Source: Saprospiraceae bacterium (GTDB taxonomy: Bacteria; Bacteroidota; Bacteroidia; Chitinophagales; Saprospiraceae). Taken from it: a stretch of DNA of 64,000 bases. The stretch covers positions 1 to 64,000 of the forward strand of contig JAIYAP010000041.1 in assembly GCA_027488935.1 (NCBI GenBank), given 5' to 3'. This document shows, one piece after another, positions 1 to 63,700 of this stretch; the first letter of the stretch is position 1; each line of letters begins with the position of its first letter. The position numbers were made by a program, and so were the translations under genes. The notes beneath the pieces are model-generated. The model was not told where the DNA came from, did no database searches, and saw nothing but the letters and a program-made list of their open reading frames with translations.

Positions 1-79
1 CTTCTTCACCAATTTGATCAAAAAATGCCTGAGGAATCTGGTCAAGTAAGTCTTTTACGCGCAGAGACTGTCTTTTCAT
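1..79 (-). CDS. N-terminal fragment of a probable IS4-type transposase, cut by the window edge
   Basis: An ATG at 79 on the minus strand opens a frame that stays open to base 1, giving 26 residues that begin MKRQSLRVKDLLDQIP. The start resembles N termini of IS4-family transposases of Bacteroidota, which open with a short helical segment of the type KVKDLL.QIP. This is recognition from memory on very few residues, and no catalytic DDE residue lies inside the window. A palindromic repeat (116-166) lies directly upstream. It could instead be another short helical protein; the rest of the gene is outside the window. Confidence 0.45.
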   Translation of the reverse strand, partial: MKRQSLRVKDLLDQIPQAFFDQIGEE

Positions 80-115
80 CCCGCAAAATTACCTCTTTAG
101 GTTTTAGACAGCAAT

Positions 116-166
116 GGGCAGAGCCCGAATGATCGACACACGCGGTAGAACCGCGCGCGAGCGAGG
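116..166. repeat. Double-hairpin palindromic repeat, copy 1
   Basis: This 51-base unit starts GGGCAGAGCCCGAATGATCG and continues with a second hairpin GCGGTAGAACCGC. It is the same element as the arms of the inverted repeat at 49487-49607. The first hairpin has the form GGGC-AGA-GCCC. The second hairpin has changed bases on both sides of the stem relative to the other copies (GCGG/CCGC against GGGG/CCCC), so pairing is kept. It sits ten bases past the 3' end of the alkyltransferase gene and just upstream of the transposase fragment. Confidence 0.85.
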
Positions 167-46923: not shown

Positions 46924-46931
46924 TACTTTTG
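46924..46931 (+). promoter_or_regulatory. -7 promoter element of the beta-mannosidase gene
   Basis: TACTTTTG fits TAnnTTTG and ends only 6 bases before the ATG at 46938. If used, transcription would start at or near the start codon, giving a nearly leaderless mRNA. Confidence 0.4.
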
Positions 46932-46937
46932 CCTTTG

Positions 46938-49457
46938 ATGAAAAAAATCCTGCAATTTTCGCTTATTCTGATCCCCATGATCGCAGCTGCGCAACCGAAT
47001 TACACGCCCATCCGTAACCCCCTTTATGTTGCCTGGGAGTTTCGACAGGCCGAAACAACTACCTGGCTGCCGGCCAACGTACCCACCAGTGTGCACAGCG
47101 CCTTGCTGCAAAATGGCAAAATTGAAGATCCGTATTACCGCGACAATGAAGCCAAAGTACAGTGGATCGAAGAAAAAGATTGGGAGTTTCGCTCCACGTT
47201 TGACGTAGACCCCGTTACGTTGCAAAAGAAACATGTGGAGCTCGTTTTTAAAGGCCTCGACACGTACACCCATATTTACCTCAACGATACCCTGATTCTT
47301 GAAACAGATAATATGTTTCGGAGCTGGAAAGTAGACGTTAAAAAATGGATCAAACCGACCGGCAACCGCTTGTTGGTCTATTTCGACAGTCCCGTAAAAC
47401 GGATCAAACCGGAATGGGATAAATTGGGCTACGAACTGCCCGGAGGTGTCCGCACCATGAGCCGAAAAGCACAGTTTCACTTTGGTTGGGACTGGGGCCC
47501 GCGTTTGGCCGGTTGTGGCATTTTGAAAGCGCCCGAAATCGTGGCCTGGGACGATGTTATCATCGAAAACGTATTTGTCACAACCCTCGAAGTGACGCCC
47601 GAAAAAGCAAAAATGGTAGCGCGCTTTCGGTACCGCTCCGATTTTGCGGGCAATGTGACCCTTATCAGCCGCGATGGAAAACGCAAAGGCGTGGAAGATC
47701 GCAAGTTTGAAGTAGGGGTGCACAACGATTCCATTACGTTTGAGGTCATGAACCCCAAATTATGGTGGAGCAATGGCATGGGCGAACCGCATTTATACGA
47801 TTTTACCTTCGAAATTAAACGTGGTGTGCGCCAACTTGAAAAAGTAGATGTACGTACTGGTATTCGAACTGTAAAACTGATCACCGAAAAAGACAAAGAC
47901 GGGGAGTCTTTTTACTTTTTATTGAACGACAAACGGGTGTTTGCGAAAGGTGCCAACTACATTCCGCAGGATTTGATGCAGGATCGGGTAACCCCTTTTC
48001 ATTACCAAAAACTGCTCGATGATGTGAAATCGTCGAATATGAACATGCTGCGCGTGTGGGGTGGTGGCATTTATGAAGATGACCTGTTTTATCAATTGTG
48101 CGATGCACGTGGTATTCTGGTGTGGCAGGATTTTATGTACGCCTGCGCCTTGTACCCCAGCAATGGCCGTTTTTTGAAAACAGCCGCTTTTGAAGCCCTC
48201 GAACAAATTGAACGCCTGCGCCAACACCCTTGCATTGCGCTGTGGTGCGGCAACAACGAAAACAACGAGGCCTGGAACAACTGGGGCTGGCAAATGAACT
48301 TTACCGAAGAGCAACGCAAGCAACTTTGGCGCGATTACAAGACCCTTTTTCAGGATCTGCTGCCGATTTATGTGGAAACCAACGCGGGCGGTGTATCCTA
48401 TTGGGAAAGTTCGCCGCGTTACGGCCGTGCCAACCCCAAAAGCCATAAAGAAGGCGATTCGCACTATTGGGGCGTGTGGCATGACGAAGAGCCGTTTGAT
48501 GTGCTCAATAAAAAAGTGCCGCGTTTTATGAGTGAATTCGGCTTTCAGTCCTTCCCGGAATGGAAAACCATCGAAACCTTCACCCTGCCGGAAGACCGCA
48601 AACTGGAAAGCAAAGTGATGTTGGCCCACCAAAAACACCCGCGGGGCAATGCCCTGATTGCCGAATACCTGCAACGCGACTACCGCCCGGTGGACAAATT
48701 TGAAGACCTCGTGTATGTGAGTCAACTCTTGCAAGCGGAAGGCATGCGCACCGGCATAGAAGCCCACCGACGCAACAAACCATACTGCATGGGCACCCTG
48801 TACTGGCAACTCAACGATGTGTGGGGCGGCGCCTCCTGGGCCAGCCGCGATTACTTTGGGCGCTGGAAAGCCCTGCAATATTATGTGCGGGAGGCCTATA
48901 AGCCCGTCGCCGTGTTGCCTTACGTGGAAGACGACGTGTTAAAAGTATATGGCGTGTCGGATTTGCCTGATTCGGCGGTCGTGCACCTGCGGGTACGCGC
49001 GATGACCCTGGATGGAAAAATATTTAACGAAATAAACCTGCCGGATACTTTATTGCTGGCTGATTCGAGCAAAGTGCTTTGGGAAATGCCGCTGAAAAAG
49101 TTTTTGGAAAAACACAAGCCGGAAAACACGATGATCGAATGCCAATTGCTGGCAGCAGACAGCACGGTACTTTCGCATCGATTGTTGTTCCTGACGGCAC
49201 CCAAAAACCTCAAACTGTCCAATCCACGCATCAAAACCACGGTTTCCAAACAGCCACTTGGCTACGAAATTACCTTGACTTGCGAAAATTTGGCAAAAAA
49301 CGTGTTCTTGCAATCCAGCGCAGACGGCTTTTTCTCGGATAATTATTTTGATTTGATTCCTGGAGAAAGCAAAAAGGTGTTGTTTACGACTAAGGCAGAT
49401 TTAAAAGAAGCAAGTGGGGCATTTACGGTGAAACATTTGTTGGATACTTGGAAGTAG
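46938..49457 (+). CDS. Exported beta-mannosidase, glycoside hydrolase family 2
   Basis: The 839-residue enzyme has a signal peptide (FSLILIPMIAAAQ), a jelly-roll sugar-binding domain (residues about 25-195, VELVFKGLDTYTHIYLNDTL), an immunoglobulin-like domain, and a TIM barrel. The acid/base glutamate is in WCGNNENNEAW and the nucleophile in FMSEFGFQSFPEW. HFGWDWGPRLAGCGIL is typical of beta-mannosidases rather than beta-galactosidases. It probably removes terminal beta-mannose from glycans in the periplasm. The 3' end (last eight codons) is duplicated downstream at 49605-49631, flanking a palindromic element. The product ends KHLLDTWK. Confidence 0.92.
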   Translation: MKKILQFSLILIPMIAAAQPNYTPIRNPLYVAWEFRQAETTTWLPANVPTSVHSALLQNGKIEDPYYRDNEAKVQWIEEKDWEFRSTFDVDPVTLQKKHVELVFKGLDTYTHIYLNDTLILETDNMFRSWKVDVKKWIKPTGNRLLVYFDSPVKRIKPEWDKLGYELPGGVRTMSRKAQFHFGWDWGPRLAGCGILKAPEIVAWDDVIIENVFVTTLEVTPEKAKMVARFRYRSDFAGNVTLISRDGKRKGVEDRKFEVGVHNDSITFEVMNPKLWWSNGMGEPHLYDFTFEIKRGVRQLEKVDVRTGIRTVKLITEKDKDGESFYFLLNDKRVFAKGANYIPQDLMQDRVTPFHYQKLLDDVKSSNMNMLRVWGGGIYEDDLFYQLCDARGILVWQDFMYACALYPSNGRFLKTAAFEALEQIERLRQHPCIALWCGNNENNEAWNNWGWQMNFTEEQRKQLWRDYKTLFQDLLPIYVETNAGGVSYWESSPRYGRANPKSHKEGDSHYWGVWHDEEPFDVLNKKVPRFMSEFGFQSFPEWKTIETFTLPEDRKLESKVMLAHQKHPRGNALIAEYLQRDYRPVDKFEDLVYVSQLLQAEGMRTGIEAHRRNKPYCMGTLYWQLNDVWGGASWASRDYFGRWKALQYYVREAYKPVAVLPYVEDDVLKVYGVSDLPDSAVVHLRVRAMTLDGKIFNEINLPDTLLLADSSKVLWEMPLKKFLEKHKPENTMIECQLLAADSTVLSHRLLFLTAPKNLKLSNPRIKTTVSKQPLGYEITLTCENLAKNVFLQSSADGFFSDNYFDLIPGESKKVLFTTKADLKEASGAFTVKHLLDTWK
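49430..49456 (+). repeat. Direct repeat, upstream copy (3' end of the beta-mannosidase gene)
   Basis: This 27-base segment encodes the end of the enzyme (KHLLDTWK and part of the stop). It recurs at 49605-49631 with a single mismatch (T against C). The two copies flank the inverted repeat. Confidence 0.9.
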
Positions 49458-49486
49458 GCGAAATACTACACTTCAAATTTTGACAT

Positions 49487-49607
49487 TTCCGTTGCTAGCG
49501 CGGGGTTCTACCCCGTGCATCAATCATTCGGGCTCTGCCCGCTTATCTTCCTCGGGCAGAGCCCGAATGATCGGTACACGGGGTAGAACCCCGCGCAAGC
49601 AAGGGAA
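49487..49607. repeat. Inverted repeat of two palindromic units (copies 2 and 3)
   Basis: Two 55-base arms, 49487-49541 and 49553-49607, are inverted copies with five mismatches and an 11-base spacer. Each arm contains two small hairpins, CGGGC-AGA-GCCCG and CGGGG-TAGAA-CCCCG, and the arms can pair with each other into one long stem. The right arm matches the single unit at 116-166. Confidence 0.92.
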
Positions 49608-49631
49608 ACATTTGTTGGATACCTGGAAGTA
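49605..49631 (+). repeat. Direct repeat, downstream copy
   Basis: This segment repeats 49430-49456 with 26 of 27 bases identical and even recreates a stop codon (TAA instead of TAG). It is outside any gene and ends three bases before the stop codon of the convergent SulP gene region. Confidence 0.9.
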
Positions 49632-49633
49632 AA

Positions 49634-51199
49634 CTAATGCAGCGCGGTGATTTCAACCGATGGAACATCGATTAATTTAAAATCAATGTGCTTAACGTGC
49701 GCTTTGGCCTTAAATTCCTGAAAAATTTCCAGGATATCATGGTCAATGTACACACTATCAGACCCAATGATTTCTACAGATGCGTATTCGGGCAGTTTGT
49801 CCAACATCTCCACAAAACGCTTCTTATTCAGAAAACTTACGTTCAAGGCAAGTTGGACGGTAAAACATTGAATATGCCCGACGGTATGTTCTTTCAGGGT
49901 AAAACCCGCGTGATACGTATATTTGATCAAAAAATAAATGGCATAAGCAATGCCAATTAACACCCCAATCAGCAGGTCGGTGAGTAATATCGCAAACAGC
50001 GTTACGATAAACGGCAAAAATTGCTCCCTGCCTTGTTTGTAAACAGCAAGGATCATTTTAGGCTTAACCAGGTTGTAGCCCGTGCGGATGAGGATAACCG
50101 CCAGTACACAGTACGGGATTTGATTGAGCAATGGAACCGCAAATAAAATGGCCAATAACAGCCAAATTCCGTGGGTAAACGAAGATAAACGGGTTTTTGC
50201 CCCTGCTTCAACATTAGCCGAACCGCGCACAATGACGGCGGTAATTGGCAGACCGCCCAGCAGGCCACTCAAAAAGTTGCCGGTACCTTGCGCAATTAAT
50301 TCGCGGTTCTGCGGTGTAACGCGGTTGTAGGGATCCAGTTTATCAATCGCGGCAACACTCAACAGCGTTTCCAGCGTTGCGACAAAACAAATCACAACGG
50401 CATTGCGCCATATCGCAGCATTGCTAAAAAACACGCCTAAGTTGGGCCACGCAAACTGCGATGTAATATCCTTCGGAATATGCACAAAATGCGTTTCATT
50501 TAGTTTTAATACAGGAATATACGCATTAAATAAATTAGCCAATAATATCGCAGTTAATACCACTAAAAAGGATGCCGGAATAAATTGAAAACGCTTTGCA
50601 AAAAATCTTTTCCACACCATTAATACGGTCATCGACAGCAACGAAATTACGACGGCCCCCAAACTCATTTCGGCATATAAACTGCGCATATTGCTAAATA
50701 CATGTTGCAGTGTTAATATGTTGAATAACTCATTCGACCAAAAATCGGGCTGACCGTAGCCGATTAATTGCGGAATTTGTTTTGAAATCAGGATAATTCC
50801 AATGGCACTCAACATGCCCTTAATCACCGTGGAAGGTATAAAATGGGTAAAACCTCCTAATTTTAATACCCCTAACAGGATTTGTAATAGTCCTGCCACC
50901 GCTACCGACAAATAAAATAATTCGAGCGCACCTAATTGGGTAATGGCAGCAGCACAAATGGCCGTTAAGCCTGCCGCCGGGCCACTTACACTAAATTCCG
51001 ATTTGCTCAGGGTGGTAATCACTACGCCGCCAATGATTCCTGCAATTAAGCCGGAAAGCACGGGCACTCCAGACGACATCGCTACCCCTAAACAAAGTGG
51101 CAATGCCACGAAAAACACGGTAATACTGGCCTTGAGATCGTGTTTGAGCCAGGAAAGCATATAATAACGTGCTTTTCTTTGATAGGATGTAGAAGACAT
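49634..51199 (-). CDS. SulP family anion transporter with STAS domain
   Basis: The 521-residue protein has about twelve membrane helices, with the SulP signatures GVAMSSGVPVLSGLIAGIIGG and FSVSGPAAGLTAICAA, and a C-terminal STAS domain from about residue 440. SulP proteins carry sulfate, bicarbonate or other anions; the FSVSGPAAG variant is common in Bacteroidota members whose substrate has not been shown. No carbonic anhydrase or sulfur gene is adjacent to help. It lies 30 bases downstream of an SSS transporter gene on the same strand and may be co-transcribed. Confidence 0.88.
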   Translation of the reverse strand: MSSTSYQRKARYYMLSWLKHDLKASITVFFVALPLCLGVAMSSGVPVLSGLIAGIIGGVVITTLSKSEFSVSGPAAGLTAICAAAITQLGALELFYLSVAVAGLLQILLGVLKLGGFTHFIPSTVIKGMLSAIGIILISKQIPQLIGYGQPDFWSNELFNILTLQHVFSNMRSLYAEMSLGAVVISLLSMTVLMVWKRFFAKRFQFIPASFLVVLTAILLANLFNAYIPVLKLNETHFVHIPKDITSQFAWPNLGVFFSNAAIWRNAVVICFVATLETLLSVAAIDKLDPYNRVTPQNRELIAQGTGNFLSGLLGGLPITAVIVRGSANVEAGAKTRLSSFTHGIWLLLAILFAVPLLNQIPYCVLAVILIRTGYNLVKPKMILAVYKQGREQFLPFIVTLFAILLTDLLIGVLIGIAYAIYFLIKYTYHAGFTLKEHTVGHIQCFTVQLALNVSFLNKKRFVEMLDKLPEYASVEIIGSDSVYIDHDILEIFQEFKAKAHVKHIDFKLIDVPSVEITALH

Positions 51200-51229
51200 G
51201 TTGTTGGGATGGTTAAAGCATGTAATATA

Positions 51230-52924
51230 TTATTTTTTATTAAAAAACACCGTGTATTGCAAAATCAAACTCAAGCCCATCACCAAGCCGCAGCCCAAGG
51301 GATTGTACCACAAATACGCGTCTTTATCCACCCAAAAGAACATATACAACACCACGCCCTGCGAAACCAATGCCGCCCAAAAAACAGCCTTTCCACGCAC
51401 CGTTTTGAGGAAAAACGCCGTGAAAAAGATGCCCAACATGGTGCCATAAAAAATAGAACCAATCATATTGACCGCCTGAATCAGGTTGTCGGGCAACTTT
51501 ACATACGTGGCAAAAATCATGATAAAAATGCCCCAAAACACCGTCGCCAACCGCGATGCCCGGAAATAATGGGTATCGTCGCGGTTTTTCACCAACGAAC
51601 GCCGGTAAATATCATTAATCGATGTAGCCGCCAAAGAGTTGAGCTCCGAGGCCTTGGTACTCCAGGAAGCGCAAAAAATCATGGCAAACATCAACCCAAT
51701 CAGCCCCACCGGCAAGTGGTTCATAATGAACCCGATAAATATATAGTCCTTGTCCTTGGAATCAAGAAGCGGCAAGGCCTGTTTGGCCACCGTAACGGCT
51801 TCATCGTGCAGTTGCACGCTTTGCTGGTCGATTTGTTGCAGCTGGGTGCGTGCCGTTGCAACTTGCTCCGCATCGGATTGATGCAAAGCCTCGGTCAATT
51901 GTGCGAGTGTATTTTTTTTGATCTGAAACAAGGTATCTGCGCGGGCTTCCAATTGTACAAACTGCGCATTTTGCGGTGTTTTTTCAATTTTCAGGCGATT
52001 GGCCTGGTTGAAATACAAAGGCGGCTGGTTGAACTGGTAAAATACAAACACCATCACCCCGACCGACAATACCAGCAACTGCATCGGAATTTTTACAAAG
52101 CCATTGAATAACAGGCCAAAACGGCTTTCCCGCAAGGATTTTCCCGATAAATACCGCCCGACCTGACTCTGGTCGGTGCCGAAATAGGAGAGAAACAAAA
52201 AGGTAGCGCCCAGCACACCCGACCAAATATTATACCGATCGTGCCAACTGAAGGACCAATCCACCACCTGGGTTTTGCCCGTGATGCCCGCAATTTGCCA
52301 GGCTTCCGGCAGCCCTACCCCTTCCGGCAACTGGTACAGCACCAGGAAAAATGCCAGGATCAATCCGCCCAACATAATGGTCATTTGCAATTCCTGGGTG
52401 CGACTTACGGCCGCATTGCCCCCAAACGTGGTGTAAATGATCACAAAAGCGGCCAAAAAGAAATTGGTAAACGCCAGGTTCCAGCCAAACACCGTAGAAA
52501 GAATGATGCCCGGCGCATATATACTGATGGCCGCTGAAATACCGCGCAGAATCAAAAACAAAATGGCCGTAAACGTGCGCATCCGCACATCAAAACGCTG
52601 TTCTAAGTACTCGTAAGCGGTGGTTACCCGCAATTTGTAATAAATAGGCAGCACCACGTACGCCAGGATAACCATGGCGATGGGCATACCGAAATAAAAT
52701 TGCGCAAACTGCATCCCATCGGCATACGCTTGTCCGGGCGTACTCAAAAAAGTGATTGCGCTCGCCTGGGTGGCCATGATGCTCAGGCCGATGGTCCACC
52801 AGGGTAAATCGCGGTTGCCTGCCAGAAAATTTTCACTCGACCCGAGGTTACGGCTTTTGTACATGCCATAAAAAATGACCAAAGCCAGGGTAAAAGTCAG
52901 TACAATCCAATCAATATAATGCAT
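51230..52924 (-). CDS. Sodium:solute symporter (SSS family)
   Basis: The 564-residue protein has the SSS N-terminal pattern SSENFLAGNRDLPWWTIGLS and SAITFLSTPGQAYADGM, and about thirteen helices. A hydrophilic helical insert of about 90 residues (LEARADTLFQIKKNTLAQLT to AKQALPLLDSKDKDY) interrupts the membrane part around residues 330-420. Substrates in this family range from sugars to amino acids and sialic acid; none can be chosen from sequence. The order SSS-SulP downstream of a beta-mannosidase on the other strand is not proof of a sugar link. Confidence 0.87.
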   Translation of the reverse strand: MHYIDWIVLTFTLALVIFYGMYKSRNLGSSENFLAGNRDLPWWTIGLSIMATQASAITFLSTPGQAYADGMQFAQFYFGMPIAMVILAYVVLPIYYKLRVTTAYEYLEQRFDVRMRTFTAILFLILRGISAAISIYAPGIILSTVFGWNLAFTNFFLAAFVIIYTTFGGNAAVSRTQELQMTIMLGGLILAFFLVLYQLPEGVGLPEAWQIAGITGKTQVVDWSFSWHDRYNIWSGVLGATFLFLSYFGTDQSQVGRYLSGKSLRESRFGLLFNGFVKIPMQLLVLSVGVMVFVFYQFNQPPLYFNQANRLKIEKTPQNAQFVQLEARADTLFQIKKNTLAQLTEALHQSDAEQVATARTQLQQIDQQSVQLHDEAVTVAKQALPLLDSKDKDYIFIGFIMNHLPVGLIGLMFAMIFCASWSTKASELNSLAATSINDIYRRSLVKNRDDTHYFRASRLATVFWGIFIMIFATYVKLPDNLIQAVNMIGSIFYGTMLGIFFTAFFLKTVRGKAVFWAALVSQGVVLYMFFWVDKDAYLWYNPLGCGLVMGLSLILQYTVFFNKK

Positions 52925-60758: not shown

Positions 60759-63700
60759 TTATTTTTTTTCAACAGCCTTTTCCAAGGCGGTTTCTAAACG
60801 TTGTAACCGGGATTCGAGATCGGCGTTTTTTTGTTGGATGGCCTCTAGTTCGGTGCGAACAGCCGCATTTTCTTTTTGCAATGCCTGTATTTGCACCTGT
60901 TGTTCTTGTATCGCTTTCACCGTAATGACGCTCATTAATCCATAATTGACCATGTAGATCTCCTGGTTGCGATCGGGTGCCATTTCGTGCGATACTACTT
61001 CGGGGAATACATCATTCAATTCCTGGGCAATAAAGCCGATGGTACGTTTACCGGTTCTAGCATTGTCAACGTGCACGTAATCGGTGGGGTTCAGCAGCAT
61101 GAGCCCCTGTAAGGCAGAGCGGAATGGTTTGATATCTGTTTTTAAGCGGCGGTCGCTGGTGGTGTACACACCGCTGGCAGCATTGAAGGCGCCCCTGAAA
61201 TTGTTATTAAAAAACAAATTCAGGTTACCTCCAGAGGAAGCGGTTACGATTTCCCAATCGTCGCCGGCGTTGTTCTCAAGGTCGAGGCCAAATTCCGAAT
61301 GCTTGATTTTCATCTGAAAAGAACCGATGGTGGTGGTATTCACCCCAACTGCACCATTGCCCTGGATCGTGAATGGGAACGGACTGCTGGTACCGCTGCC
61401 ATGCGCATAAACAAAATTGAACGTTGAATTGGCGGCAATGGTCGGGTCGAAAGACGCCGAAGTGATCCATTTGCTGTTGTTGCCTTGTTGTGAAAATTCA
61501 ATACTGGAATTGCCACCTGCTGCTACATTGGAATTGTGCAGTTTCAGCATTTTAGCAAAAGAGAGCACACCAGGTGTCGGGCCGTGGTTGATCTGCATTT
61601 TCACATCTGTTGCCACGATTGGCAAACCGATCCCCACTCTTCCAACCCCGGTTTCAAGGGCCAAACCAGTTGTTGAATTTAAAAAAGCGGCTGAGCCTGT
61701 TTCGGCAGACGCGAGTAAACCCGAACCAGCACCGAAATTAATCCCAACCAGTGCATTTCCGGTGCTGTTCAGCCGGGCAGCAATCGCAGCAGGCTTATTG
61801 GTGGCATTGCTGCCTACGGTCAGGAGCGTAAGTGGGTCGGGTGTAGCACCCATGGCGATACTTCCGTTTTGATCGATGATCATTCTATCCTGACTGATAC
61901 TGCTGCCATTGGGCGTGGTAGCAAAATTAAAGCGGGTACCATTGTTAAGGGGGGTCCAGTTTTCGGTAGCGGTTGCATAAATAGATGCTCCGCTTTTGAA
62001 CGATGCACCCGTATATCCTTGAAAACTGATCGCTGCAAGCGGTTGGCTGATGACTTTGGCGGTCGGTGCGGCTTTTGTGCCATTCGCACTACCAAACCCA
62101 ATAATACCACCACCGCCAGAACCGAAATAATTCACCTCCAAGTCATTTACGCCACCTGTGCTGCTTACGGTAAGGGGGGATTGGGGATTCGCAGTACCGA
62201 TGCCCACATTACCTGCATCGGTAATCATCGCAGGGCCACTTTGAGAAGAAAAGAATCCGGCAGCACCGCTATTGGATTCAAAATAACCGCCATAGTTAGC
62301 AGTTGAACCGCCATAAACCCCGATTCCTGTATTACAAATACCGGCAATCGCGGTAGCCGCCGAGGTATTTTGAATCCGGAAAACATCGCCCATGCCAGCC
62401 CCGATATTCACCGTTTGGCTATAAGGCAAGGTGAGTCCACCGCCTGCTGTGCCCGGTGCCCAGTTGGTCCCATTCCACCGCATCACCTGACCAGTAGTTG
62501 CGCCATCTTGTGCAATTTTTAGCCCTGTGACTGCACCATTCGCCAGTTCCGATGTTCCGACCGCATTCGCCGCAATTTGCAGATTGCTAAAAGTTCCGGT
62601 AACATCGCCACCAGCAATGGATGCATTGGTTATATCATTAGACGGATCAGCATCGCCTGTATTGGTAATGACATTGCCCGCAATACTGATACCTGCACCA
62701 GCAGTATAAGTAGGGCCGCCACCGCCGCCGCTTACGTCGTTCGCGGGCTCCCATTGGTTACTGGAAGCATTCCACTTGATGACCTGCTGGTCGGCAGGAG
62801 CAGCAGCGGACACATTGCGCCCTTTTATTTTATTAACCGAAAGTGTTGAAAATGTGCCACTTACATCACCATTGGCGATACTGCTGTTGACAATATCATC
62901 GGCTCCATCCGTATCACCGGTATTGGAAATAACACTGCCTCCAACAATGCTAATACCCGTACCTGCCGAATAAGTACCTGCCGGACCAACCGGGCCAGTA
63001 GCGCCTGTAGGGCCTGCGGGTCCAGTTAAGCCAATTGGGCCTTGCGCACCCGTTGCACCTGCGGCACCTGTTAAGCCGATCGGACCTTGCGCACCCGTTG
63101 CACCTGCAGGACCAGTCAAGCCAACTGGACCTTGTGCGCCTGCGGGACCTGTTAAGCCAACCGGGCCTTGTGCACCTGTTGCACCTGCGGCACCTGTTAA
63201 GCCGATCGGACCTTGCGCACCTGTTGCACCCGTTAAGCCAACCGGACCTTGTGGACCTGTTGCACCTGTTAAGCCAATCGGACCTTGTGCACCTGGTGCA
63301 CCTGCGGCACCCGTTAAGCCAACCGGACCTTGTGCACCTGTTGCACCTGCGGCACCCGTTAAGCCAACCGGACCTTGTGGACCTGTTGCACCTGTGGGAC
63401 CTGTTAAGCCAACCGGGCCTTGTGGACCTGTTGCACCCGGTAAGCCAACCGGGCCTTGTGGACCTGTTGCACCTGTTAAGCCAATCGGACCTTGCGCGCC
63501 CGTTGCACCTGCGGCACCCGTTAGGCCAATCGGACCTTGCGGACCCGTTGCACCTGCGGCACCCGTTAAGCCAACCGGGCCTTGCGGACCCGTTGCACCT
63601 GCGGGACCTGTTAAGCCAATCGGACCTTGTGGACCAACTGCGCCGCCGCCATTACCCGAGAACAAGGCATAAGGCACACTCATCAATTGCGTGGTGCCCA

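Follow-up and report, generated by a model that had tools for sequence, protein, structure and literature searches.

The window, by which we mean the whole stretch of 64,000 nucleotides analysed here, contains an intact beta-mannosidase gene that is followed by a long palindrome and then by a convergently oriented permease gene. The features referred to in the text are listed below by position, with the strand where it was recorded; G000 denotes the genome of the window and G023 that of a sister species.

46929 to 49457, plus strand: beta-mannosidase gene (GH2), intact; an 842-aa ORF with matches to Pfam Ig_mannosidase and Glyco_hydro_2_N2, whose 3' end is the duplicated part
49284 to 49315, plus strand: stretch of this gene with a degenerate copy (26/32 bases) to the right of the element in G023
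49430 to 49456, plus strand: first 27-mer, the native gene end
49494 to 49541, plus strand: left arm of the REPIN-like element, with foot, outer mini-hairpin, linker and inner mini-hairpin (R1 model, E 3.0e-15; covariation)
49553 to 49600, minus strand: right arm of the REPIN-like element (R1 model, E 1.6e-15)
49605 to 49631, plus strand: second 27-mer, located at the outer end of the element; probably what remains of a longer 3'-end duplication
49634 to 51199, minus strand: SulP-type permease gene, the convergent neighbour (PF00916)
51222 to 51317, strand not given: single, element-free copy of the 3' end of a sodium:solute symporter gene, of which G023 has three copies
116 to 166, strand not given: second, partial element copy, consisting of one arm with the inner mini-hairpin broken by an IS end

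The preliminary description of this DNA had placed an inverted repeat between two copies of the gene end, and both were confirmed. The 27-mers at 49430-49456 and 49605-49631 are identical at 26 of 27 bases, and the inverted repeat between them occupies 49486-49608, with 56-nt arms that are 91% complementary and lie 11 nt apart. The palindrome strand was predicted to fold at -115.9 kcal/mol, compared with a mean of -58.75 for shuffled sequences (z of -12.24), and it is more than a chance structure since it is a member of a repeat family of the genome. The first 27-mer, which comprises the last eight sense codons and two stop bases of the 842-aa ORF, is separated by 29 bases from the inverted repeat and by 37 from the modelled arm. 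The second 27-mer overlaps the end of the inverted repeat by 4 bases. With a gap of 29 bases on the left and an overlap of 4 on the right, the 27-mers are unsymmetric about the element, unlike those of a simple target duplication. In 3-kb tiles across the window, the repeat-rich gene near 63 kb aside, three other direct repeats were found, of 30 to 75 bp and 73 to 87% identity. The stretch at 63001-63640 is internally repetitive, with many direct repeats of about 80 to 500 bp.

A REPIN-like repeat family and its RAYT genes

The palindrome at 49486-49608 is a REPIN-like element of a RAYT-associated repeat family in this Bacteroidota genus. The preliminary description had offered REP-type mobilisation as an alternative, and it is supported in so far as the element is a REP-type repeat. 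The REPINs of Pseudomonas fluorescens SBW25 were described as two inverted REP units with a short spacer, with RAYTs located beside REPIN clusters (PMC3116915). The present element similarly combines two inverted REP-like units with a short spacer (11 nt in the window) and an association with RAYT genes, while some other copies are single arms. Each arm is about 48 nt long and is laid out as foot, outer mini-hairpin, linker and inner mini-hairpin. In 37 aligned arms all 406 of 406 cells at the 11 mini-hairpin pairs were paired, and 33 cells carried double changes compared with 8.5 in shuffles, relatedness being known to inflate such counts.

A DNA search of the own genome with 49400-49660 gave 66 matches on both strands at E up to 10, some of them chance matches. 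The arm covariance model (R1), applied at E up to 0.001 with stricter filters, gave at least 50 matches in the own genome and at least 49 in G023, and had matches in at least 15 of 42 genus genomes, a count that includes the own genome. The genome holds many copies, and those inspected sit outside genes. The palindrome is one copy of a hairpin that is repeated in the genus and is probably mobile. The foot of a canonical REP hairpin, with the tetranucleotide GT[AG]G or GGAG, was lacking, as GTAG, GGAG or their complements occurred in 0 of the 37 arm feet, and in this respect the family is unlike the GTAG/CGTC REP families (PMC3733652). A search of Rfam with the palindrome yielded no match at gathering level; the only such match in the window was a tRNA.

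Four Y1_Tnp matches were found in the own genome. The one at C46:222496-222672 belongs to an ORF of 205 aa, which has a complete element on one side and, on the other, a further copy that is interrupted by an IS end. The RAYT counterpart in G023 (C406, 205 aa) matched NCBIfam REP_Tyr_transpos (NF047646) with 97.9 bits against a cut-off of 80. At both places, C46 of G000 and C406 of G023, the RAYT gene is flanked by copies of the same repeat. TnpA_Y1 subclass 2.6 is reported to be mostly from Bacteroidetes, with "atypical secondary structures" and the motifs NH[LIV]H, WQ and YIH[QN]NP (PMC6006769). The present system resembles this subclass in belonging to the Bacteroidota and in having a Y1 transposase gene flanked by unusual hairpins that are copied elsewhere in the genome. 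Compared by motifs, NHVH or NHIH and WQ are present, but the third motif is YIHMNA and departs from that of the subclass (PMC6006769). A PDB sequence search with the RAYT returned nothing at E 1e-3, and the plasmid collection contained only distant RAYT relatives, with less than 60% identity, in 5 records.

In G023 the neighbours of the RAYT gene are SulP and an element, and the corresponding place in the window holds an element alone; at the G023 equivalent of the G000 RAYT site, on contig C763, an element and no RAYT were found in the stretch inspected. RAYT presence and absence at two element sites is reciprocal between the sister species (G000 C46:222032-222986, L032; G023 C406, L085; C405, L202; and C763, L172). 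Relative to the G000 RAYT gene region, the C405 copy of G023 is 98.7% and the C406 copy 92.1% identical. Because the beta-mannosidase contig of G023 (C86) ends inside an element, we infer the G023 order of beta-mannosidase, element, RAYT, element and SulP across a contig gap. The left arm of the window element at 49494-49600 resembles the left arm of the element on C86 (L084, 46/48), and its right arm the right arm of the element on C406 (L085, 47/48). By its sequence the window element looks as if a RAYT had been lost from between the halves of one palindrome, or gained into it.

An IS with terminal ATTGCTGTCTAAAACC abuts the inner mini-palindrome of the element, GGGC-NNN-GCCC, in six distinct contexts (window 1-166 at the contig start, with the IS end at 1 to about 115, and L003, L016, L021, L045, L046 and L102), and for this reason it appears to target the element repeat. 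In this it is like the REP-targeting elements ISPpu9 and ISRm22 (PMC1525189). Such targeting is a phenomenon separate from the gene-end duplications. The partial transposase of this IS gave a weak match to Pfam DUF4372, below the cut-off.

Gene-end duplications at the window and other element sites

The sister G023 is about 93% identical at the window locus, and its beta-mannosidase end and the left part of its element match the window. To the right of the element it has no second 27-mer; a 32-bp stretch is found instead, which matches window 49284-49315 at 26 of 32 bases and comes from the same gene, 146 bp further upstream than the 27-mer. When 3000 tails were drawn at random from the window, with those starting at 46.9 to 49.7 kb skipped, no tail reached this score against the gene end of G023. 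In both species the remnant begins with GAAA, 3 to 4 nt past the element's terminal GCNNGC. In both sister species a piece of the beta-mannosidase 3' end is attached to the element at its outer end, but it is a different piece in each. The gene carries GAAAATTTG at 49284 and GAAACATTTG at 49430, and a deletion between these two would convert the G023 arrangement into that of G000. Both pieces probably go back to a single duplication, at least 173 bp long (49284 to 49456), that decayed differently in each species, while two separate duplication events might also lie behind them. Since the sister has the element with a different gene piece and without the second 27-mer, the 27 bp are most likely a remnant.

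Among the loci examined in relatives, which came from fewer than the 41 genomes with a beta-mannosidase match, beta-mannosidase and SulP were present in one locus only in the own genome, and the comparison did not provide the empty site proposed as a check in the preliminary description. In the genome G004 (L064) the beta-mannosidase gene converges directly on the symporter gene, at a distance of no more than about 20 bp, and both SulP and the element are missing. As these two genes adjoin there, SulP was either gained in the lineage of the window or lost in G004.

At four other sites the element lies between direct copies (77, 104, 207 and 361 bp) of a gene 3' end, and the sister is single-copy at each. 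At L201, G023 carries three copies (about 101 to 104 bp) of the sodium:solute symporter gene's 3' end. One pair of copies is separated by the element, the other by a palindrome that has collapsed to 16 bp. All three agree in states that are absent from G000, where window 51222-51317 is one copy with no element. At L174 of G023 the element is followed by a 361-bp copy of the gene 3' end with 92% identity, and contig C516 starts with the end of such a copy and continues into a further element; at this place (L264) G000 has a single gene end without an element. The L174 copies match each other and the sister at 333/361, 333/361 and 332/361, and since they are as far apart as they are from the sister, this is an old event that could have run in either direction. 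L194 of genome G042 has a 77-bp copy with a single-arm element between, whereas its sister G024 (L280) has one gene end and only the older downstream element; the new and old elements of L194 are 96.6% identical over 59 bp. At L195, also in G042, the element, a spacer and a 3' gene segment are duplicated as a 257-bp unit, of which G024 (L283) has one.

The frequency of such arrangements was determined on 92 listed sites, drawn from the matches listed and exclusive of G024 sites found later, of which 4 were dropped for a flank of less than 60 bases and 88 had both flanks. A direct repeat was scored as abutting when it measured 25 bp or more and its copies began no further than 40 nt from the element on either side; 7 of the 88 had one. 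Five of these are gene-end copies (the window, L174, L201, L194 and L195; 4/87 without the window's own), while L149 and L150, whose repeats are situated inside element arrays, fall outside this class. Two further cases were left uncounted as abutting, L050/L096 and also L299, where copies of 193 bp are found 439 bp past the element. The refuting condition named in the preliminary description, that other copies show no flanking duplications, thus had a mixed outcome: four other sites have them, and 81 of the 88 had no abutting repeat. Such a duplication was seen at 0 of 282 pseudo-elements placed after stop codons and at 3 of 1500 random pseudo-elements, 2 of the 3 being in the repeat-rich gene near 63 kb. 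Fisher tests gave p values of 7e-4 for 5/88 and 0.003 for 4/87 (without the window site, which prompted the work) against 0/282, and 2e-5 and 3e-4, respectively, against 3/1500, all of which are optimistic because a site with an orthologue in the other of two sister species entered the count twice. The site pairs L166/L268, L164/L269, L167/L266 and L158/L273, with and without the element, looked like plain or complex indels with no clear duplication, as did L148/L272, and such pairs count against a universal rule.

Insertion of the IS200/IS605 type is single-stranded and is not known to make a target duplication; gene-end duplications were present here at 5 of the 88 sites and abutting repeats were absent at 81. 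MITEs and derivatives of classical IS elements typically have a short target duplication of fixed length. The element does not fit this class, as the abutting gene-end duplications measured 27 (the remnant), 77, 104, 207 and 361 bp or were absent, with repeats of at least 25 bp scored.

Recurrent breakpoints at the outer ends of elements

The breakpoints occupied the same place on the element and recurred from locus to locus, with single copies in the sister genomes: at five sites the outer end facing away from the intact gene continued, 1 to 7 nt after its terminal GCNNGC, into a position within that gene. Gene end and element form a tandem unit at L174 and L195. The distance from the terminal GCNNGC to the new junction is 4 and 7 nt at these two sites, and the position of the junction is informative there because the tandem unit ends with the element. 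At the window, L201 and L194 the junction does not by itself favor a jump-back mechanism, since any insertion ends there.

A related pattern was observed on a smaller scale. When 45 nt were required beyond the arm, 20 of 133 arms were followed directly on the outside by a repeat of their outermost 18 nt (15 or more of 18 matching), compared with 0 of 126 for inward repeats (p of 1e-6), in a test that was devised after examples in these loci, that counted orthologous arms twice and whose inner control faces the palindrome center. Seventeen of the 20 outward repeats had a period of 18 to 24, at most 2 nt of further left homology, and a start near the loop of the outer mini-hairpin. In the L096 region of G023, four decayed tip repeats lie beside the element.

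We tentatively suggest a jump-back explanation, in which a free DNA end would arise at the outer end of the element; the simplest route to it would be a nick made by RAYT and subsequent run-off of a replication fork. The freed end may re-enter the same region upstream, by about 20 to 360 bp and with little or no homology, and replication restart would then copy the segment, yielding the gene end, the element and the gene end once more, in some cases together with a second element. Re-entry inside the element would produce the tip repeats of about 20 nt. The gene would survive because one copy stays whole, and the extra copy would decay, leaving 27 bp in the window's species and 32 bp in G023. 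As a whole this explanation appears quite possible while falling short of probable; the points that count against it include the ending of several contigs at element palindromes, the metagenomic origin of the G023 assembly, the shortness of the 32-bp remnant and the 81 sites that have no abutting repeat. A wider proposal would be that REPIN-like elements spread and reshape their surroundings by jump-back copying from a RAYT-cut outer end and not by clean cut-and-paste of a single-stranded circle, that one mechanism makes the tip repeats, the tandem REPIN-plus-flank clusters known from other bacteria and long gene-end duplications, and that an element is newly inserted if copying passes into a donor element and then goes back upstream. 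We consider this generalization distinctly unlikely.

In an alternative that needs no RAYT, the palindrome would be a fragile site whose stable hairpin occasionally gives rise to tandem duplications, by ordinary slippage during replication or by recombination. Palindromes have been termed fragile sites (PMC7999016), and the element at L201 that has collapsed to its terminal 16-bp palindrome beside the duplication is what slippage over a palindrome would be expected to leave. The tip repeats, outward in 20/133 and inward in 0/126, speak weakly against this account, as a hairpin stall might also be asymmetric, and we regard it as somewhat unlikely. A true insertion with a long and variable target duplication, in which an excised single-stranded element integrates at nicks that are spaced by tens to hundreds of bases on the two strands, with subsequent gap filling, would fit the order gene end, element, gene end at L201 and L194, where the outer copy sits directly on the native flank, and the sister without the element at L201 and L174. 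However, the same gene-element junction occurs twice at L174 and L195, and at L195 G024 already has the single-copy element, a pattern of tandem duplication rather than of insertion; the lengths, moreover, vary from 77 to 361 and sites without duplication exist, which makes such insertion an unlikely explanation. A 27-bp target-site duplication by an insertion-sequence-type transposase, suggested by the two near-identical 27-mers that flank the element, is very improbable given their asymmetry, the lack of the second 27-mer in G023 despite its element, with a piece from elsewhere in the gene in its place, and the quite different lengths or lack of duplication at other sites. What stands of the original proposal, that the arrival of the element duplicated the 3' end and left the gene intact, is that a gene-end copy accompanies the element and the gene is whole, but not the 27-bp target duplication.

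REPINs, their association with RAYTs and tandem REPIN clusters with flanks have already been published (PMC3116915, PMC3733652), as have Bacteroidetes RAYTs with atypical hairpins (PMC6006769). In SBW25, 16 ordered clusters repeat a REPIN together with flanking sequence, and excision events were reported; unlike those clusters, as the available text describes them, single elements here also lie between gene 3'-end copies with single-copy sister sites (PMC3116915). A literature search, with most subscription papers outside its scope, found no account of REP elements between long gene-end copies with single-copy sister sites. The sister-genome pairs with and without element-tipped duplications are footprints that any mechanism of REP/REPIN movement must explain, and they name places where such movement can be tested directly.

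Two further arrangements were noted at element loci. At L264/L265 (the end of G000 C75 and the start of C57), a (GAGATGACACCTCGGG)n minisatellite occupies the place where G023 has an element, a gene-end copy and an element. At L050 (G000 C62:1-1300) and L096 (G023 C28), an element lies between tandem gene copies, with a 260-bp match of 96%.
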